The notes below the pieces were generated by a model. It was not told the origin of the DNA, searched no databases, and was given only the letters and a program-made list of their open reading frames with translations. From Celeribacter litoreus (lineage in GTDB: Bacteria > Pseudomonadota > Alphaproteobacteria > Rhodobacterales > Rhodobacteraceae), in NCBI RefSeq assembly GCF_020165855.1, contig NZ_JAIUFY010000013.1, positions 248,001 to 312,000 of the forward strand: a stretch of DNA of 64,000 nucleotides. The letters are read 5' to 3'. This document shows positions 2,250 through 15,149 of this stretch, piece by piece. Both the position numbers and the translations under genes were made by a program. Position 1 is the stretch's first letter, and every line of letters begins with the position of its first letter.

Positions 2250-3202
2250 GCATTGCTGAATACGTACGGATTCTGGGCCGTGGCCCGGGCCGGTCACGTT
2301 CTCTGACATACGCAGAAGCCCATGAGGCTATGGCCCGCGTGTTGCGTGGTGAGGCCGCACCGGAGAGCGTCGGCGCAATGCTGATGCTGATGCGGATGAA
2401 GGGCGAAACGCCGGATGAGATCGCGGGCTTCACGGCTGCTCTGCGCGATACCCTCACCTCCGTTCCAACGCCTGATCTCGATTGGCCTTCCTACGCGGCC
2501 GGCCGGACGCGGGGTCTTCCGTGGTTTCTGCTGTCGGCACGTTTGGTCGCGCAGGCGGGTTATAAGGTTCTGCTCCATGGTTGGAATGGTCTTGGTGAGA
2601 GTGGCCACTATGTTCGCGAGGGAATGCCGTATGCTGGCATTTCCGTCTGTGCGTCTCCGGAGCATGCAGAAGAGGTTCTCGCGTCGGAAGGCATTGCCTA
2701 TCTGCCTTTAGAGAACTTTTCTCCTGAACTTCTCCATTTTCTACAACTCCGGCAGGTCTTCGGCCTTCGTTCTTGCCTCAACACGGTCGCACGCATGTTG
2801 AACCCCGGCGGAGCAAATGCGTCTGTTCAGGGTGTCTTCCACCCCCCTTATCGCGAGCTACAGGCCGACGCATCACATCTGCTCGGGCTCGGGGCTCTTT
2901 CGGTCATCAAGGGTGGCGGTGGCGAGTTCGAATGTAACCCGTCTAAAGACATTCAGGTCTTCGGATTGCGCGATGGGAATCCTTTCGAAAACATTGTTGC
3001 GCCCAGTTATGAGGAAACGCGCCGCTTGAACGACGGTGACCTAGACCTCTCGCGTTTGACCGAAATGTGGCGCGGACGGCTAAACGATCCCTTCTGCGAG
3101 GAAATTGTCGTCTCGACAGCTGCTTTGGCATTGGAAACATTGAGAAAAATTGATGCGCTAACGATTGCCCGTGACCTTTGGGTCGCGCGGAATGACATAT
3201 AA
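2246..3202 (+). CDS. Glycosyltransferase family 3 / TrpD2-like protein
   Basis: Resembles the anthranilate phosphoribosyltransferase fold, YbiB/TrpD2 branch. The N-terminal helical domain (about residues 1-70, with GETPDEIAGFTAALR) and a Gly-rich phosphate-binding segment near HGWNG fit the family, but the true TrpD motif GTGGD is not obvious, so tryptophan synthesis is unlikely. E. coli YbiB of this branch binds nucleic acid; the role here is unknown. The start overlaps the nasA stop (ATGA), and this gene commonly follows nasA in Rhodobacterales, so it is probably transcribed with the nitrate assimilation operon. Confident on fold, not on function. Confidence 0.75.
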   Translation: MSIAEYVRILGRGPGRSRSLTYAEAHEAMARVLRGEAAPESVGAMLMLMRMKGETPDEIAGFTAALRDTLTSVPTPDLDWPSYAAGRTRGLPWFLLSARLVAQAGYKVLLHGWNGLGESGHYVREGMPYAGISVCASPEHAEEVLASEGIAYLPLENFSPELLHFLQLRQVFGLRSCLNTVARMLNPGGANASVQGVFHPPYRELQADASHLLGLGALSVIKGGGGEFECNPSKDIQVFGLRDGNPFENIVAPSYEETRRLNDGDLDLSRLTEMWRGRLNDPFCEEIVVSTAALALETLRKIDALTIARDLWVARNDI

Positions 3203-3309
3203 TTTTCACAAAAAATTCACCAAAGAGAACATTTCTGTTACATTTCGGCTTGATTTTCGCCCTTTTGTTGCGCGATAGGGGGCTCGGGGGTTATTTTGGA
3301 GTACTTGGT

Positions 3310-3570
3310 ATGAGTTTTTTCTCGAAGCTTTCGGGTTTCTACGAAGCATGGCAAGCAGGCCTCGCAGTTAGCGAAAACCTGATCATGCTCGCCGTAGGCA
3401 TTTCCTTCATGATTGGTGCTGTTGCTGCGCTGATCTGGATGCGTTCCAACACCACTGCTGATCAGACCGGCACGGTTCAGGACGACGCCTACACGGTGCC
3501 GGGCGAACGGCACATCGTTGCACGCAAAAAGGGCTGCGCCTTTACGCGCCGCCTCGAAACACTGGCATAA
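3310..3570 (+). CDS. Small single-pass membrane protein, unknown
   Basis: An 86-residue protein I do not recognise. The ATG at 3310 is preceded by GGAG eight bases upstream, better than any upstream in-frame start. Residues about 22-44 form one hydrophobic transmembrane segment, followed by a polar tail and a basic stretch (ARKKGCAFTRR) near the C terminus. It lies about 100 bp after the TrpD2-like gene and 40 bp before another unknown small gene on the same strand. Function unknown; topology is inferred from hydrophobicity only. Confidence 0.6.
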   Translation: MSFFSKLSGFYEAWQAGLAVSENLIMLAVGISFMIGAVAALIWMRSNTTADQTGTVQDDAYTVPGERHIVARKKGCAFTRRLETLA

Positions 3571-6959: not shown

Positions 6960-7334
6960 TTACGCGTCGAGCGGCTTGTAGTTGGTGACTTCTGCGATAC
7001 GGGCAGATTTGCCGCGACGCGAACGGAGGTAGTAGAGTTTCGAACGACGGACTTTACCGCGACGAACAACCTCGATGGTTTCGATGTTGGTGGAGTAGAG
7101 CGGGAACACACGCTCAACGCCTTCACCGAAGGAAATTTTGCGAACCGTGAAGGAGCCGGCAATGCCTTTGCCGTTCTTACGGGAGATGCAGACACCTTCG
7201 TAGTTCTGCACACGGGTGCGCGAACCCTCGGTCACTTTGTAACCGACGCGGATGGTGTCACCGGCTTTAAAGTCCGGGATGGTTTTGCCGAGAGCTTCGA
7301 TTTGCTCGGCTTCAAGCTGGGCGATAAGATCCAT
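6960..7334 (-). CDS. rplS: 50S ribosomal protein L19
   Basis: A 124-residue protein at the 30S-50S interface. Family motifs are clear: [18 protein letters not shown], then the basic [14 protein letters not shown] near the C terminus. It is cotranscribed with rpmE 17 bp downstream. It is the usual downstream partner of trmD, but here a membrane-protein gene and a terminator separate it from trmD, so it probably has its own promoter in the 7335-7505 interval. Confidence 0.97.
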
Positions 7335-7508
7335 CGCTTAAACTCCAATTTGCTCGTGGTTTTGTCCACGAAGGTTTCAACTGCCTCAGAGCTCCGCGTC
7401 TTCGATCGGGTCCATCCATATGATGCCCGCCGGAGGGTTCAGGTCGTCTTTGCTTTGATCAATCTGCGTTGCCGTGTTGGACAGAGAAGAAGCCGTCCGG
7501 CAAATAGC

Positions 7509-7545
7509 AAAAAGGCCCGCGCATCGATTCCGATGCCAGACGGGC
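7509..7545 (-). terminator. Intrinsic terminator after the membrane-protein gene
   Basis: Read on the minus strand, a GCCCG/CGGGC outer stem encloses a perfect GCATCG/CGATGC inner stem and is followed by five T. It lies 54 bp past the stop of the gene at 7599 and separates it from rplS. The rest of the 7335-7598 interval shows only a small CGTGG/CCACG hairpin (7353-7368) and no gene I can support. Confidence 0.75.
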
Positions 7546-7598
7546 GGTGTATAGGCAGATATGCCCAACGTGGCAAGGGGTTTGAGGGATTCTATGGA

Positions 7599-8090
7599 TT
7601 AGTTTTCCCAATCCGGTGGGCCAAAACTGATCCGGTGCGCCACTGCTCCGACGAGCGCGCCAACCACAGCTCCGCCGCCGTAATAGAGGATCATTGCTGG
7701 CACGGTGATTATCGACAGCACAATCATCATGGAGACGACCTCCGCAAACCCACCAGGTCCCGAGTAGGTCATTGAACCGTACAACGACAAACCGTGCACG
7801 ATTGCGGCGCCAGCCCAAGCTCCGAGCGCGATATAGACTATTCGCAGATAGTCTTTCGGTCGCGTTGCAAGCGTCTTCTTGAGGCGCCATCGGACAATCA
7901 ATGCGAGCGGGAAGAACGGGATATTTGACCAGATCGCAAACGGGATAAGGAGTTCGATGCCGCGTTCGATGGTGACGACACCTCTCCCCTGCGAGATCAA
8001 AACCTCACGCGCGACGACCCCCACAATGGCCGTAATGAGAAAGCCGGAAATCCAGATGCCGTTGACGATCAACCTCGCTGATAGGCGCAT
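7599..8090 (-). CDS. Hypothetical four-helix integral membrane protein
   Basis: A 163-residue protein with about four hydrophobic segments (near residues 8-28, 45-65, 85-105 and 118-150), the last rich in Gly and Ala. I do not recognise a family. The ATG has GGGAGGGG six bases upstream, a strong ribosome site. It sits 71 bp after trmD and ends at its own terminator, so it interrupts the usual trmD-rplS adjacency. No catalytic motif is visible. Confidence 0.65.
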   Translation of the reverse strand: MRLSARLIVNGIWISGFLITAIVGVVAREVLISQGRGVVTIERGIELLIPFAIWSNIPFFPLALIVRWRLKKTLATRPKDYLRIVYIALGAWAGAAIVHGLSLYGSMTYSGPGGFAEVVSMMIVLSIITVPAMILYYGGGAVVGALVGAVAHRISFGPPDWEN

Positions 8091-8161
8091 TGCAAACCCC
8101 TCCCTGATCCTCGCAGTCTACCACGCAACTTGCATGGCGGCTTTGATCAGGGTTCGGGCGC

Positions 8162-9010
8162 CTAGTCCTTCGTATTTTTGGCCTGATAGGCTTCCCACAT
8201 ATCGGGACGACGATCTTTGGTGATCTTTTCGGACATCTTCTGACGCCATTCCGCGATCTTGCCGTGGTGTCCGGACATGAGCACAGGCGGGATCGGCAGG
8301 CCGCGCCATTCTGCGGGGCGGGTGAATTGCGGGTGCTCCAGAAGGCCGTTGGAGTGGCTCTCTTCTTCGATGCTGTCCGCATTGCCCAACACGTCTGGCA
8401 GGAGGCGCACGGTCGCATCAATCATCGCCTGCGCCGCGATCTCACCGCCTGTCATGACAAAATCGCCAAGCGACACTTCTTCGATCCCGTAGTGAAACAG
8501 CACGCGATCATCGACGCCCTCAAAGCGTCCGCAGATCATCGTGACGCCACGCGCCTCGGACCACCGCTGCGCCGTCGCCTGATCGAACCGTTTCCCGCGA
8601 GGTGACAAGTAGACGAGCGGCCATTCATTGCGGTTCGGCGGGAGGCCGTTCATCGCGAAATCAATGGCCTCACCCATGACATCGGGACGGATCACCATCC
8701 CTGCTCCGCCGCCTGCGGGGGTGTCATCAACGTTCTTGTGTTTGCCGACGCCGAAATCGCGGAGGTTGATCTGCTCGAGCTGCCACTTGCCGTCTTGGAG
8801 CGCTTTGCCCGTGAGGCTTTCGCCCAAGACGCCGGGGAAAGCATCCGGGAAGAGCGTGATGATCTTCGCCTTCCAGACACCAACGATATCCGGCGTGTTC
8901 GTCATCAACTCGCGCGGGCGCAAGGTCGGGCGCACGGCGAGGCGGCCGTGCGATTTCGCGGCTTGCGTGGACTTGGTTTCTGGCTGCTCAGGCGTGTTTT
9001 CGTCAGTCAT
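8162..9010 (-). CDS. trmD: tRNA (guanine-N1)-methyltransferase
   Basis: SPOUT-family enzyme that methylates G37 of tRNAs using S-adenosylmethionine, preventing frameshifts. Motifs KIITLFPDAFPGVLG near the N terminus, ICGRFEGVDDR, and the knot segment EVSLGDFVMTGGE are intact, as is the C-terminal HHGKIAEWR region. At 282 residues it carries about 47 extra N-terminal residues before the conserved VWKAKI; an internal ATG at 8905 would remove 35 of them. The chosen ATG at 9010 has a weak GGA upstream, so the start is uncertain. It lies 39 bp after a sulfotransferase gene in the rpsP-rimM-trmD cluster. Confidence 0.95.
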   Translation of the reverse strand: MTDENTPEQPETKSTQAAKSHGRLAVRPTLRPRELMTNTPDIVGVWKAKIITLFPDAFPGVLGESLTGKALQDGKWQLEQINLRDFGVGKHKNVDDTPAGGGAGMVIRPDVMGEAIDFAMNGLPPNRNEWPLVYLSPRGKRFDQATAQRWSEARGVTMICGRFEGVDDRVLFHYGIEEVSLGDFVMTGGEIAAQAMIDATVRLLPDVLGNADSIEEESHSNGLLEHPQFTRPAEWRGLPIPPVLMSGHHGKIAEWRQKMSEKITKDRRPDMWEAYQAKNTKD

Positions 9011-9049
9011 GAGTGTCCTATAACGCGCGGTGGGAGCCTTGAAAATAGG

Positions 9050-9826
9050 TCAGGTGCGGCCTTCCAGAATGGCCAGCTTTTCGCGTTCATATTCGGGGCC
9101 CCAAACCTTTGAGCGGTTCAGAGAGAGCAGTTTCTCGCGCGCATCCTCTCCGGGGAACACGTTCGCGTCAGGCGGAAAGGTGAGTTTCGCGCGCAGTTCC
9201 GTGAGGTTCAGCAGAGCAAGGAGAGGGTCTATAGGATGCGCCATATCCTCAAGCGTCGCCGTGAACAGCACCTCATCGCCTATCCGGTCGCGGATGTCGT
9301 CCAAGATCTTCGGGTGATCCGCCGCAGCGTGATATTTCGCGATATACTCATCGAGGCCAAGCTTGAGCCGGGACGCCTTCAACCGCTGCCAGTGGCAGGA
9401 CGCAAGCCATCCTTCGCGTCGTGTCGAGTAATACGCGCAGAAGGTATCCTCAGATCCGGTAACGTCTCTCCATGCTTGATAAAGCAGTGAGATAATGATC
9501 GGCGCCGATCCGTATTTCCCGACACCGGATGAGCCGGGGAAATGCCCGGAGAGACTCTCGCTACTGATCAAAATCGGTCGTGGGTCCGATCTATCGAGCG
9601 AGGCAAAAAACTCAGTGGCTTTCTCGACGATGACAGCCTTTGTCGCCTTGCAGCGATTGCCGGAAAAGTCGAGCGCGGCTTTGCGGAGCGCGAGAAGGCT
9701 GATCCCTTCCTGCAAGTAAATCTCGGCGTGTGGCAGGAGGAGGGGCGCGTTGAGGGCCAGAGTATTCTGCACTGTCGTCGTGCCGGTCTTGTGGAAACCG
9801 GCATGAATGACAATCCGTCGGCTCAC
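9050..9826 (-). CDS. Sulfotransferase-like P-loop protein
   Basis: A 258-residue protein beginning with the PAPS-binding P-loop GFHKTGTT at residues 10-17, typical of bacterial sulfotransferase-fold proteins abundant in Rhodobacterales. A second motif resembling the 3'-phosphate loop ([10 protein letters not shown], about residues 85-94) follows. Acceptor unknown; members often act on glycans or lipids, and some lack proven activity. It overlaps the stop of rimM by 4 bp (ATGA) and is followed by trmD after 39 bp, so it is embedded in a translation operon with which it has no evident link. Confidence 0.7.
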
Positions 9827-10332
9827 TCGAAGAGGCCCTCCGGCGGGTCAGCAATAATCCGGCCGGATTTGAGGTCGACTGTCGGGACGTTCTTGAGCGT
9901 GAACGGGAGCAGGGCAGGCGTTTTGAGGTTTGGGCCGTGCACCTCGAGAAGGTCTCCCGCGCCGTGGTTCAACACGTTGCGGACCGTGCCAAGCTTGGTC
10001 CCGCCTGTGTCGAGAACATCCAGCCCGATCAGGTCTGCGTGGTAGAATTCGTCGTCGGGCAGGGAAGGAAGCTGGTCACGTTCGGCAAAGAGCGTGACGC
10101 CTTTGAGGGCGTCCGCCTCTTCCTTGGTCTCAACACCTTCCAGACGTCCGGCAAAGCCGTTCTTGATGACCCGCGTCAGGGTGAGCTCGTAATGCGTCGC
10201 CCCGTCTTCGGAGGTGAGCGGCGAATACTCCGCGATCGCCTCCGGGTCGGCGCAAAAGCTTTTGATCCGCACTTCGCCATGCACGCCAAATGAACCGGCG
10301 ATGGCTCCGACGAGAATTCTAGGTTCACCCAT
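9823..10332 (-). CDS. rimM: 16S rRNA processing protein RimM
   Basis: A 169-residue ribosome maturation factor that helps assemble the 30S head together with S19. The N-terminal RimM domain begins [19 protein letters not shown], and the C-terminal PRC-barrel contains [14 protein letters not shown]. It is downstream of bluB and rpsP and overlaps the sulfotransferase-like gene by 4 bp. The usual direct rimM-trmD adjacency is broken here. Confidence 0.95.
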
Positions 10333-10368: not shown

Positions 10369-11016
10369 TTACCGTTCCAGAATCTCGGGGCAAGACTGTC
10401 GTGTTTCCCAACCTGCGGCCTGCAACTCTGGCTCTAGGCTTTCTTGCTCCGGATAGCCGATGCAGAGATAGCCGACGAGGCTCCAGTCTTCCGGAATGTC
10501 GAGGGATTGAGATAGGCTTTTCGGGTTTAGAATGGACACCCAACCGAGGCCGATCCCCTCAGCGCGGAGCATGAGCCAGAACTGCATGATCGCGGAGACG
10601 ACGGAATAGCGGAGCATTTCCGGCATTGTCTGAATGCCGAGACCTTTGCCGGTGGCCGTGCCCTCATCACAGAAGACAGCAATCTGAACAGGTGCTTCGC
10701 GCATGCCGGTGAGTTTGAGAGAGGCGTATTTCTGCGCCGTCTCCCCCTCATATCCGCCGAGTGCATTTGCGTTGGCGGTTTCGAAGTTCTTGAGCGCATT
10801 GGCGCGTGCCGCATCACTTTCGACCCGCACGATCCGCCACGGTTGGGACAGTCCGACGGACGGCGCGAGTGAGAACGCGGTCAAGCAGCGTTCGAGCGCG
10901 TCGGGGTCAACGGCATCGCTCCGAAACCGGCGCACATCGCGGCGCCAGCGGAGCAGTTCGTTGAAATCGTTGCGGAAAGATTGGGAGAATTGGCCGAAGA
11001 GAGGTTGGTCTTCCAT
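10369..11016 (-). CDS. bluB: 5,6-dimethylbenzimidazole synthase
   Basis: Flavin-dependent enzyme of the nitroreductase fold that cannibalises FMN to make the lower ligand of vitamin B12. The 215-residue length, N-terminal RWRRDVRRF, the PSVGLSQPWR motif and the C-terminal GWVSILNP segment fit BluB rather than a general nitroreductase. The ATG at 11016 follows AAGG about ten bases upstream; longer in-frame extensions run into the rpsP terminator. It sits between rpsP and rimM but behind a strong terminator, so its transcription may be partly uncoupled. No B12 riboswitch could be recognised in the short space before it. Confidence 0.82.
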   Translation of the reverse strand: MEDQPLFGQFSQSFRNDFNELLRWRRDVRRFRSDAVDPDALERCLTAFSLAPSVGLSQPWRIVRVESDAARANALKNFETANANALGGYEGETAQKYASLKLTGMREAPVQIAVFCDEGTATGKGLGIQTMPEMLRYSVVSAIMQFWLMLRAEGIGLGWVSILNPKSLSQSLDIPEDWSLVGYLCIGYPEQESLEPELQAAGWETRQSCPEILER

Positions 11017-11101
11017 GTGTGGCGAACCTTTTTCAAATGTCGTCGCAGATGACGACACTGACACATAACTACCCTCTGGCGGCAAAGTTCCCGCCAGAGT
11101 C

Positions 11102-11131
11102 AAAAAAGGCGCAGGCAAAGGCGCCTGCGCC
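11102..11131 (-). terminator. Intrinsic terminator after rpsP
   Basis: Minus-strand stem GGCGCAGG/CCTGCGCC with an eight-base loop followed by six T. It lies about 30 bp downstream of the rpsP stop and would cut off or attenuate transcription into bluB and rimM. Confidence 0.8.
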
Positions 11132-11162: not shown

Positions 11163-11540
11163 TTACTCTTCTGCGGTTGCTTCAGCAGCAGCTTCAGCGG
11201 CCTCAGCAGCTTTTGCAGCTTTCTCTTCAGCGCGGTCCTGAGCTTTTTTGCCCGGAACGGCTTTCTTCGGGTTGCTGCGCTCTTTTTTCGCAACGACGCC
11301 AGCAGCTTCGAGCATGCGGGAGATACGGTCGGTCGGCTGTGCGCCTTGGCCGAGCCAGTATTGAACGCGCTCGAGGTCCATTTTCACGCGCTCTTCGCTG
11401 TCTTTCGGCAGGAGCGGGTTGTAGGTGCCGAGCTTCTCGAGGAAGCGGCCATCGCGCGGCATGCGGGAGTCAGCAGCAACGATGCGGTAGAACGGGCGTT
11501 TTTTGGAACCGCCGCGGGCGAGACGAATTTTGATAGCCAT
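11163..11540 (-). CDS. rpsP: 30S ribosomal protein S16
   Basis: Small-subunit ribosomal protein with the diagnostic N terminus [19 protein letters not shown] and the [14 protein letters not shown] segment. At 125 residues it is longer than the E. coli protein (82); the extra C-terminal about 35 residues are a low-complexity Ala/Glu/Lys tail, frequent in alphaproteobacteria. It sits 49 bp after chorismate mutase, and a strong terminator follows. Confidence 0.97.
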
Positions 11541-11977: not shown

Positions 11978-12529
11978 TCATGCGTAGGCCTCCATGCCGC
12001 CATCCATGAGGGCGTCAGCGCTCGGGTGACGGAATACGAGAACCTCATCGGCGCCCTCCCCATCCGGACGCGGGGCCGCATCGTCACGCATTGCGCCGAG
12101 ACGTTCCGCGACAGCGATGGAGCGGGTGTTGTCCGGCGTCACGTAAGACACGACGCTTTCTTCACCGAGTTCCGCGTAGGCATAGTCACGCGCGGCCATC
12201 GCGGCCTCCGTCGCATACCCTTTGCCTTCGAACCCGTCGAACAGAACCCAGCCCAATTCCAGTTCCGGAAAATGCGGCGGTTTGTTCAGAGCGACCTGAC
12301 CGATGAGGGCCTGATCTTCGCGACGTTCAACTGCCCATGCGCCGTGACCCATCAGGGACCACTGGGCCACATCACCACAGAACGCGAACCACGCCTGACG
12401 CCGGTCGAGCGGGCCATGCATGTGGCGCGACCGCTCGGACGCGAACATGTCGGCGTAGGGGGCAAAGTCCCCTTCGACATGCGCGCGCAGGCGGAGGCGC
12501 TGCGTTTCTATGGTGGGTGCGACGGTCAT
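11978..12529 (-). CDS. GNAT-family N-acetyltransferase (RimJ/RimL-like)
   Basis: A 183-residue acetyltransferase of the ribosomal-protein-alanine acetyltransferase type. It starts TIETQRLRLR, has the acetyl-CoA-binding region LFDGFEGKGYATEAA, and ends its fold with DNTRSIAVAERLGA. The substrate cannot be told from sequence. Its ATG follows the ffh TAA directly with no spacer, so translation is probably coupled. It precedes chorismate mutase by about 88 bp. Confidence 0.85.
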   Translation of the reverse strand: MTVAPTIETQRLRLRAHVEGDFAPYADMFASERSRHMHGPLDRRQAWFAFCGDVAQWSLMGHGAWAVERREDQALIGQVALNKPPHFPELELGWVLFDGFEGKGYATEAAMAARDYAYAELGEESVVSYVTPDNTRSIAVAERLGAMRDDAAPRPDGEGADEVLVFRHPSADALMDGGMEAYA

Positions 12530-14041
12530 TTATTTCTTTTTCCCGAAACCGGAGAGACCGGGCGGCAAGGACGGGCCGCCGAGACCCGGCAGACCACCGG
12601 GCATACCTTTCGGCATCGCGCCCTGAAGCTGCTTGGTCGCTTCGGCCATTTTCGCCGGATCCATATCTTCGAGACCCTGCGGGCCGCCTTTGCCGAACAT
12701 GCCTTTCACAGCCTGTTTCAGCATGCCGCCTTTGCCCATTTTGCCCATCTTCTTCATCATGTCGGCCATCTGGCGGTGCATTTTGAGAAGTTTGTTCAGT
12801 TCGGCGACTTCGAGACCGGCGCCTTTGGCGATCCGCTTTTTGCGGGAGGCCTGAAGGAGCTGCGGGTTGGCGCGCTCTTTCTTGGTCATGGAGTTCACGA
12901 GGGCGATCTGGCGCGCGATGATTTTGTCGTCGAAACCGGCGTCCTGCACCTGTTTCGCCATTTTGCCCATGCCCGGCATCATGCCCATGATGCTTTCCAT
13001 GCCGCCCATCTTCTGCATCTGCTCGAGCTGCATCTTCAGGTCGTTCATGTTGAAACGGCCCTTCTGGAAGCGCTTCATCATGCGTTCGGCTTGCTCGGCC
13101 TCGATGGTTTCCTGTGCCTTCTCGACGAGGGCAACGATGTCGCCCATGCCGAGGATGCGGCCAGCGACGCGTTCCGGATGGAACTCTTCGAGGGCGTCCA
13201 TCTTTTCGCCGAGACCGACAAATTTGATCGGCTTGCCGGTGACTGCGCGCATGGAGAGCGCTGCACCGCCACGGCCGTCACCATCCATACGGGTGAGGAC
13301 CACGCCGGAGATGCCGATGCGTTCGTCAAAGTTTTCTGCGGTGTGGACAGCGTCCTGACCGGTCAGACCGTCAACAACGAGAAGCGTCTCACGCGGGGAG
13401 GTGAGGTTGCGGACCTCTTCGACCTCGGCCATGAGCGTTTCGTCGATGGAGAGACGACCTGCGGTGTCGAGCATGTAAACGTCATAGCCACCCATCGTCG
13501 CCTGTTGCTTGGCGCGGCGGGCGATGTCTGCGGCGGACTGACCTGGCACGATCGGCAGGGTGTCGACGCCGATCTGCTCACCGAGGACTTTGAGCTGGTC
13601 CTGAGCCGCCGGACGGTAGATGTCGAGAGAGGCCATCAGGACGCGTTTGCCCTGTTTCTCTTTCAGACGTTTGGCGAGTTTCGCGGTGGTCGTGGTTTTA
13701 CCACCACCCTGAAGACCGACCATGAGGATCGGTGCGGGGGCGTTGTCGACCTTAAGCGAGCCAATCTCACCCTCATCACCCGCGAGAACGTGGACGAGTT
13801 CGTCGTGCACGATCTTGACGACCTGCTGGCCGGGGGTAACGGATTTGGTGACGGCTTGGCCGGTGGCCTTGTCAGAGACGGCTTTGACAAAGTCGCGGGC
13901 CACAGAAAGCGAGACGTCGGCCTCAAGCAGGGCAACGCGGACTTCGCGCAGCGCGGTTTTCACATCGTCTTCGGACAACGCACCCTGTTTGGTGAGCTTG
14001 TCGAAGACGCCGGACAGGCGATCAGACAGATTTTCAAACAT
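12530..14041 (-). CDS. ffh: Signal recognition particle protein Ffh
   Basis: SRP54 GTPase that binds 4.5S RNA and signal peptides of nascent inner-membrane proteins. The N domain opens MFENLSDRLSGVFDKL. The G domain carries GLQGGGKTTTTAKLA near residues 110-125 and LDTAGRLSIDE. The C-terminal M domain is Met-rich (MGMMPGMGKM, MMKKMGKMGKGGM) and ends in a Gly/Pro/Lys tail. At 503 residues it is of usual alphaproteobacterial size. An AGGAG site precedes the ATG. A highly structured leader lies upstream. Confidence 0.97.
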   Translation of the reverse strand: MFENLSDRLSGVFDKLTKQGALSEDDVKTALREVRVALLEADVSLSVARDFVKAVSDKATGQAVTKSVTPGQQVVKIVHDELVHVLAGDEGEIGSLKVDNAPAPILMVGLQGGGKTTTTAKLAKRLKEKQGKRVLMASLDIYRPAAQDQLKVLGEQIGVDTLPIVPGQSAADIARRAKQQATMGGYDVYMLDTAGRLSIDETLMAEVEEVRNLTSPRETLLVVDGLTGQDAVHTAENFDERIGISGVVLTRMDGDGRGGAALSMRAVTGKPIKFVGLGEKMDALEEFHPERVAGRILGMGDIVALVEKAQETIEAEQAERMMKRFQKGRFNMNDLKMQLEQMQKMGGMESIMGMMPGMGKMAKQVQDAGFDDKIIARQIALVNSMTKKERANPQLLQASRKKRIAKGAGLEVAELNKLLKMHRQMADMMKKMGKMGKGGMLKQAVKGMFGKGGPQGLEDMDPAKMAEATKQLQGAMPKGMPGGLPGLGGPSLPPGLSGFGKKK

Positions 14042-14064
14042 GGGCCATTCTCCTGTGTCGTGAC

Positions 14065-14236
14065 CGTTCGGGGTGCCCCTAAGGTCGGAGGCCGTTGACG
14101 ATGTGCTTCATCTGGGGACGAAGCGGCGAATTGAAACCCCGAACGTGCAAATGCACCTTTGCCCCCGTGGGCGTACAACGCTGACGGGGGGCGATCCTGG
14201 CCTGTAGCCTGAGGACCGGAAGACTCACACTTCCGG
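14065..14236 (-). ncRNA. Candidate structured 5' leader RNA of ffh
   Basis: About 170 nt that fold strongly on paper. In plus coordinates: a perfect 10-bp long-range helix (CGTTCGGGGT 14065-14074 with ACCCCGAACG 14136-14145) enclosing a GCTTC/GAAGC hairpin; a GTGC/GCAC hairpin at 14145-14156; a 7-bp CCCCCGT/ACGGGGG stem (14162-14190) with a nested GCGT/ACGC; a GATCCT..AGGACC hairpin (14193-14217); and a 7-bp CCGGAAG/CTTCCGG hairpin (14216-14236). The block ends about 24 nt before ffh. I could not match it to 4.5S, 6S, RNase P or tmRNA signatures. The strand is inferred from closeness to ffh; the gap to the plus-strand gene at 14343 is larger. No other gene is visible in 14042-14342. Confidence 0.45.
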
Positions 14237-14342
14237 GAAATTTGATCCGGTCTCTACGCGCGTGCGTATGAGGAGTCAAGTATTGTGGAGACTTTCGATG
14301 TTTCCGCTACCTGATTGCAAAGCTGTTTTCAAAGGGGTCGCT

Positions 14343-15149
14343 ATGAACGATCTGTCTGCATTTCCCGAACCGGCGCCGCGCGACGGCGTTTTGTATGTGG
14401 CTGGTGGGCCCGATTACGTTGATCTGGCAATTCAGTCCGCACGGAGCCTGCGAGAGCATGAGCCGACGATTGCCATCGACCTTGTGACCGATTTGCCGGA
14501 GAACCTGCCGCGCGGGCTCTTTGATCGGGTGACGGCGTGTTATGACATGCACCCTCGGGAAAAGCTGCGCGCGATGCCGAATTCGCGGTTCGAGCGGACG
14601 CTCTTTATGGACTCGGACACACTGTTCCTCGCGCCGCTTGGAGATCTCTTCGGGATTCTAGACCGGTTCGAGTGTGCGCTGACCCATGACGTGCGCCGTG
14701 ATTGGGAGTTGATCCGGCAGGGGCGGGACCACAAGACGCCCTATGCCTTCCCGCAGCACAACTCCGGTGTGTTCCTCTATCGCAAGTCCGAGGCGATGCT
14801 GGCGTTTCTCGAGGAGTGGGCGGAGCGGTTCTTCGCGGATGATGCGGTTGAGCGGGATCAGATCATTCTGAAAGACCTGCTCTGGGAGAGCGATCTGCGG
14901 TATTATGTGTTGCCGCCGGAGTTCAACTTGCGCCGTGTGACGATGTTAGACGCGTGGGAGCCGCTCGATGCCGTGCCGACCGTGCTGCATTCGCACCGGT
15001 TTCAGGATCACATGCGCAGCGGAGCGGAACGGATCGCGTCTCTGGAGGCTCTGCTGAAAGTCGAACGTGCGGCACTTGCTCAAGAATGGGACGGAGACCT
15101 GCCCGAAGCGGCACAGAGGTGGGCGGATCTGCGGGTTTCTGTAAAATAA
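14343..15149 (+). CDS. Glycosyltransferase-like protein (GT-A type, DxD motif)
   Basis: A 268-residue protein with a probable DxD metal-binding motif (FMDSDTLFL, Asp90 and Asp92) preceded by RFERTL, and a substrate region HNSGVFLYRKSEAM, the layout of nucleotide-sugar transferases such as GT8/GT32-type proteins. The ATG at 14343 has AAAGGGG five bases upstream; the longer frame from 14262 lacks a good site and would enter the ffh leader. Substrate unknown. It is a single gene, divergent from ffh and about 70 bp before a LysR gene on the same strand. Confidence 0.65.
   Translation: MNDLSAFPEPAPRDGVLYVAGGPDYVDLAIQSARSLREHEPTIAIDLVTDLPENLPRGLFDRVTACYDMHPREKLRAMPNSRFERTLFMDSDTLFLAPLGDLFGILDRFECALTHDVRRDWELIRQGRDHKTPYAFPQHNSGVFLYRKSEAMLAFLEEWAERFFADDAVERDQIILKDLLWESDLRYYVLPPEFNLRRVTMLDAWEPLDAVPTVLHSHRFQDHMRSGAERIASLEALLKVERAALAQEWDGDLPEAAQRWADLRVSVK

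Follow-up and report, generated by a model that had tools for sequence, protein, structure and literature searches.

The ffh RNA motif of Alphaproteobacteria as a candidate two-hairpin S16 leader of the rpsP operon

The leader and gene cluster in Celeribacter litoreus

The window (the whole stretch of 64,000 nucleotides of Celeribacter litoreus DNA that was analysed) carries on its minus strand a gene cluster that begins with ffh and continues through rpsP, rimM and trmD to rplS, preceded by a structured leader (Table 1). Other ORFs are interspersed between rimM, trmD and rplS (6960-10332, minus strand), and the cluster from ffh through rplS is probably read as one transcript. A bluB gene (10369-11118, minus strand; TIGR02476, 280 bits) separates rpsP from rimM, and a GNAT acetyltransferase gene (11978-12529, minus strand) lies between ffh and a chorismate mutase gene. 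Two cluster ORFs (9050-9826 and 7599-8090, minus strand) had no Pfam match at E 0.001, and the former had no NCBIfam match either.

Table 1 Features of the leader and of the genes downstream in the window.
Feature	Coordinates	Strand	Remarks
Putative promoter TTGACT-17-TAGAGA	14279-14251	-	TTGACT 14279-14274; TAGAGA 14256-14251
P0 hairpin CCGGAAG/CUUCCGG	14236-14216	-	near predicted 5' end; family-level
P1 hairpin CGGUCCU/AGGAUCG	14218-14192	-	14218-14212 with 14198-14192
P2 hairpin with CA/CC internal loop	14190-14162	-	loop 14183-14182/14170-14169; inside RF01793 14205-14154
10-bp long-range helix of the initial annotation	14145-14136 with 14074-14065	-	this species only; minimum-energy fold
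P3 hairpin GCUUCGUC-CCCA-GAUGAAGC	14124-14105	-	genus-level
Likely ribosome-binding sequence AGGAG of ffh	14054-14050	-	read from sequence
ffh	12530-14041	-	TIGR00959, 584 bits; first gene after leader
rpsP (ribosomal protein S16)	11163-11540	-	TIGR00002, 111 bits
rimM	10332-9823	-	TIGR02273 over cut-off
trmD	9010-8162	-	NF000648 over cut-off
rplS (L19)	7334-6960	-	TIGR01024 over cut-off

The initial annotation had described the interval 14065-14236 as strongly structured, and this was borne out: the ffh (minus) strand folded at -75.8 kcal/mol (z -3.85), with none of 200 shuffles as good, the yardstick being shuffled sequence rather than neighbouring intergenic DNA of the window. The plus strand likewise beat its shuffles (z -3.06, 1 of 200 as good). 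The annotation had recognised no RNA family here, and the Rfam covariance search that it proposed overturned this view, matching RF01793 (the ffh motif) at 14205-14154 on the minus strand over the full model (positions 1-52) with a score of 54.7 bits (cutoff 35; E 1.2e-7). The leader element is a member of this known RNA family, and the match rules out a new family for the interval. Across the whole 64-kb window RF01793 was the sole Rfam family to reach its cutoff; 4.5S RNA, 6S RNA, tmRNA and RNase P RNA gave no match over cutoff in the interval, as had been judged earlier from the sequence. Permissive Rfam scans of the window region and of one leader from the SRP-less family f49 (see below) again placed RF01793 alone above the gathering score.

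The account of RF01793 published in 2009 gives its function as unknown and depicts one hairpin with a bulge, located ahead of ffh in Rhodobacterales, Sphingomonadales, Rhizobiales and SAR11 (Meyer 2009, PMC2704228). The motif stands before ffh in the window as well, ending at 14154 with the ffh ATG at 14041. This location is not universal for the family, exceptions being f49 and the genome G033.

All 34 family loci listed and all three f49 loci listed have TTGAC at the place of the putative promoter, the second hexamer being variable, and the sequence points to a transcription start at about 14244. A stricter consensus promoter scan reported none on the minus strand here, and a simple consensus scan of 14000-14400 on the same strand gave no intrinsic terminator. 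The upstream TTGAC, the covariation and the known RNA family together support the earlier proposal of an RNA leader on the ffh strand.

The widely conserved core of the leader spans 14218-14162. On its 5' side, P0 shares 14218-14216 with P1, so that full formation of both is impossible. P0 had 91.7% of cells paired and two-sided change at three of seven pairs in 31 distinct rows; its covariation score (0.108) was below that of the structure slid by -1 (0.139), and the covariation appears to support P0 weakly. A conserved U at about 14151 (minus strand), after P2, is present in 90% or more of the 48 sequences in alignment A1 (see below) and is unpaired in the model.

On the 3' side, the perfect 10-bp helix of the initial annotation is found both in the sequence and in its minimum-energy fold and ends 23 nt before the ffh ATG at 14041, close to the 24 nt given; all helices that were checked were present. 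The helix did not hold up in relatives, however, since the longest enclosing helix differed from that of the window in all 18 genus relatives, two of which contain different helices of 10 and 11 pairs, counting G-U. In 19 genus members the stretch after the motif gave z values from 0.1 to -2.1 (window species, -1.2), mostly a slight edge over shuffles. The different longest helix in 18 relatives and the near-shuffle folding after the motif led us to reject the 10-bp helix as the functional core. P3, inside this helix, was present with pair changes at 19 of 19 genus loci; its first six pairs form in all 19, and pair 3 is CG, TG, TA or GC. In two genus relatives (L025 and L030) a segment of the P2 3' arm may be able to pair with GGCCCC nearer ffh, a possible alternative fold.

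Covariation and distribution of the extended motif

P1 is absent from the RF01793 structure of Rfam, in which model positions 1-15 are unpaired. The alignments indicate that the element is larger than the Rfam hairpin and includes P1 as a second, covarying hairpin directly 5'. Alignment A1 comprised 48 of 73 loci (L001-L059 and L160-L173), near-duplicates being left out by eye. Over P1 and P2, 97.2% of its cells were paired, versus 35-47% when the structure was slid, and two-sided changes occurred at 10 of 16 pairs in the 48 sequences, a number reached by 7 of 500 shuffles; the covariation in relatives that the initial annotation had called for is present. The pair-type count was matched by 21 of 500 shuffles and the other measures by none. 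P2 was 100% paired with two-sided changes at seven of its 10 pairs, and the P1 core was 94.0% paired (outermost pair, 82.6%).

All four SRP-less rows of A1, as well as L057, were gapped in the P1 5' arm, and P1 was therefore counted separately in the SRP-less family f49, where it was 94.4% paired. Alignment A2 (f49, 12 distinct rows) was 98.0% paired, with two-sided changes at four of 17 pairs, in 16 cells. Its paired cells, its 16 two-sided cells and its covariation score were matched by none of 500 shuffles, the four-pair count by 160 and the number of pair types by 499. The leader is a conserved structured RNA with covariation, as a ribosomal protein leader should be.

RF01793 matches, one per genome, were found in 42 of 61 relatives and in 106 of 385 class genomes. 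R1, an RF01793-like model with P1 added and built from the 48 A1 sequences, matched in 205 of the 385 class genomes at E 0.001; R1 was trained on some of the searched genomes, and its E-values are rough, with chance matches possible near E 0.001. In the window, itself one of the 48 training sequences, R1 scored 71.6 bits over 14222-14140. Chance-like weak matches were seen at 2998-3066 of the window (16.4 bits, E 0.0014) and in L133 at 3303-3375 (14.8 bits). Seven genomes (G043, G052, G087, G267, G307, G315 and G390) had two R1 matches each, and of the second copies only that of G043 is among the 150 matches listed and examined. G036, which belongs to the same family as the window and has no RF01793 match, has a weak R1 match before ffh (L133:1369-1438, 20.4 bits); its motif may have diverged rather than been lost.

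Linkage to rpsP with and without ffh

The linkage counts rest on 150 listed R1 matches, each with E 6.2e-8 or better. Of these, 145 were testable, and 142 of the 145 had rpsP downstream on the same strand; the three without linked rpsP were all at contig ends. Seventy-four of the 150 were in genomes with rpsP among the 150 listed rpsP matches, and 73 of these were linked, within 5.1 kb and on the same strand. The remaining 76 comprised 69 linked to rpsP, two at contig ends (G208 and G390) and five in assemblies without an rpsP match. The third exception is a contig-edge copy in G043, whose other copy is linked.

An Ffh match was found in 68 of 71 motif loci and in 66 of 72 further loci (some genomes counted twice), and in most loci the nearest gene is ffh, not rpsP. 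Nine loci had no Ffh: four from f49 (L074, L077, L089 and L100), two from G033 (L067 and L130) and three (L068, L070 and L124) whose motif lies 92 nt or less from a contig end on the gene side and which are not counted as exceptions. Among the genes tested, linkage to rpsP is the most constant, and the motif occupies the 5' region of the operon that encodes S16, the proposed ligand. With the first start codon placed by tblastn, its distance from the leader ranged from 15 nt (L047) to 284 nt (L033), a spread too wide for simple masking of the ribosome site to be a likely general mechanism.

In G033, a genome of the window's family, the leader is followed by chorismate mutase-rpsP-rimM-trmD-rplS, without ffh, and the rpsP there is the genome's only rpsP match. 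Its ffh is on another contig, in a 4.3-kb locus (L134) that has no R1 match. This is the weaker case because contamination of G033 is 4% and its P1 is poorly formed.

The stronger case is f49, which consists of 18 small alphaproteobacterial genomes (G306 and 17 others; named records L204-L216). PF00448 (SRP GTPase, covering Ffh and FtsY) had no match over cut-off in any of the 18 genomes, one of which gave a weak 41-position match of 20.5 bits against a cut-off of 22.7, and 4.5S RNA (RF00169) was found in none of the 18. As positive controls, 14 of 14 named genomes matched PF00448 and 11 of 14 matched RF00169. A completeness of 90% or more together with contamination of no more than 5% is reached by six of the 18 genomes, most of the others being partial; in none of these six was PF00448 over cut-off or RF00169 found. 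On this evidence f49 has apparently lost the whole signal recognition particle (SRP) pathway, which is notable in itself for a marine family. Among the papers listed in literature searches, most subscription journals lying outside them, none was seen to report SRP loss in PS1/OCS116.

The motif was present in 14 of the 18 f49 genomes and stood just before rpsP in 14 of 14 loci; the four genomes without it have no detectable rpsP either. At six full-length f49 loci (L161-L164, L172 and L173) 28 to 33 nt lie between the match and the rpsP ATG. Thirteen named records came from a pattern search across whole genomes, under labels that include PS1 clade, OCS116 cluster, Rhodobiaceae and Hyphomicrobiales; in all 13 the rpsP ATG follows the pattern after 34-41 nt. 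These records overlap with the 18 f49 genomes and are not independent of them. At 29 loci where rpsP comes first and at 28 that bear ffh (219 loci, genomes repeated), the gene dapF is divergent to the leader, and this shared neighbour indicates that ffh was seemingly removed from between the leader and rpsP. With no detectable SRP and the leader intact, f49 is a natural experiment that separates the ffh and rpsP hypotheses, and it suggests that the RNA goes with the rpsP operon and not with ffh.

Candidate S16 feedback and comparison with known leaders

We judge it rather probable that the element is a cis-acting leader of the rpsP operon with S16 feedback. The RF01793 RNA would act in cis as the 5' leader of an operon with rpsP, rimM, trmD and rplS, ffh usually being first. 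Transcription would start from the promoter just upstream, and the RNA would fold into P1 and P2, with P0 and P3 as lineage-specific additions. S16 in excess of 16S rRNA would then bind P1/P2, with the conserved CA/CC internal loop as the most likely contact region, and the bound leader would lower expression of its own operon, as in ordinary ribosomal-protein feedback. This proposal builds on the observed family membership, extended covarying structure, position, rpsP linkage and persistence without detectable ffh; from these we infer S16 as the ligand, and the step regulated could be translation start, elongation or decay.

Likeness of the leader to 16S rRNA is weak, consisting of UCAGCG at E. 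coli positions 439-444, a six-letter match of which about 0.4 are expected by chance; seven CA/NC internal-loop sites occur in 16S, and UCAGCG 439-444 is not among them. These positions presumably lie within helix 17. S16 contacts helix 17.

Control of mRNA stability or of transcription by a general factor acting through the leader (an RNase, NusA/NusG or some other ligand), without a part for any ribosomal protein, is in our judgement unlikely. It would fit the widely varying distance to the first gene and the adjoining putative promoter, and since the leader also carries that likely promoter, part of its conservation could stem from transcription. The specific conserved internal loop and the tight link to one ribosomal operon nevertheless favour an operon-encoded ligand.

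Among the products of that operon, L19 in place of S16 appears quite improbable as the protein that binds the leader. Its gene, rplS, is in the same cluster in the window, in the f49 record L207 and in G033, and was linked in 52 of 66 R1 matches tested (those with rplS among the matches listed). In G319, however, whose motif scores 60.2 bits, rplS and the ffh-rpsP cluster share a contig but are 2.03 Mb apart, in contrast to the 52 linked cases; rplS is on another contig in 13 more matches, which may be assembly breaks; and rpsP comes before rplS in the clusters read (the window, L207 and L130). The f49 records L207 (4936-5044) and L163 (2005-2230) have no rimM ORF between rpsP and trmD, and the distant rplS of G319 together with the missing rimM ORF of L207 leaves S16.

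Autoregulation of ffh, with Ffh or Ffh-4.5S binding the leader to control ffh, had been put forward in the initial annotation and was raised as a possibility in the 2009 paper (PMC2704228). It accords with ffh being the first gene in most genomes, but we hold it to be very improbable, because the motif is kept with compensatory changes in f49, which has no detectable Ffh, FtsY or 4.5S RNA, and stays with rpsP in G033, where ffh is elsewhere. The motif does not depend on Ffh or the SRP in f49, and autoregulation by Ffh as its sole function is largely refuted by that family. A trans-acting small RNA, implied by the Rfam type 'Gene; sRNA' and in line with the transcript detected in metatranscriptomic small-RNA studies according to the 2009 paper (PMC2704228) and with a 441-nt transcript under RF01793 in one RNA-seq survey (PMC5596092), is similarly hard to credit, given the lack of a terminator after the motif in the scan described above, the short gap before rpsP that holds the motif in f49, and the linkage to one operon in nearly all testable matches listed.

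The S16 leader reading has a broader form, to which we give an even chance. The ffh motif would be misnamed, being a two-hairpin S16 autoregulatory leader of Alphaproteobacteria at the head of ffh-rpsP-rimM-trmD-rplS; it would let ribosome assembly set the supply of SRP protein in much of the class, and would have survived the loss of the SRP. An RNA without an assigned function since 2009 gains a testable role, and should S16 prove to be the ligand, many Alphaproteobacteria would have the production of SRP protein tied to that of ribosomes. The RNA family itself was already known; what is new here is the added hairpin P1 and the evidence for membership of the rpsP operon. Among the papers listed in the same literature searches, again with most subscription journals outside them, none was seen to link RF01793 to S16. 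A 2024 review finds no information on expression control of the E. coli trmD operon (rpsP-rimM-trmD-rplS), a rare situation among ribosomal operons (PMC10931766).

Like the RF01793 described by Meyer (2009, PMC2704228), the element has P2 with conserved C residues in the bulge and occurs upstream of ffh in Alphaproteobacteria including SAR11. The published motif is a single hairpin linked to ffh in nearly all cases, whereas the element described here adds P1 and is linked to rpsP even without a detected ffh. Two further motifs from that 2009 work (PMC2704228), rpsB and rpsL, are also structured leaders before ribosomal protein genes in SAR11; they belong to other operons, and we liken them by description. 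For Flavobacteria, Eckert and Weinberg (2020, PMC7247131) predicted a leader for S16, in a paper whose main text does not contain the word ffh. That leader also precedes rpsP, usually with rimM, and S16 is its proposed ligand, a prediction there too, but it comes from another phylum, and it is likened here to the alphaproteobacterial element by gene context and proposed ligand.
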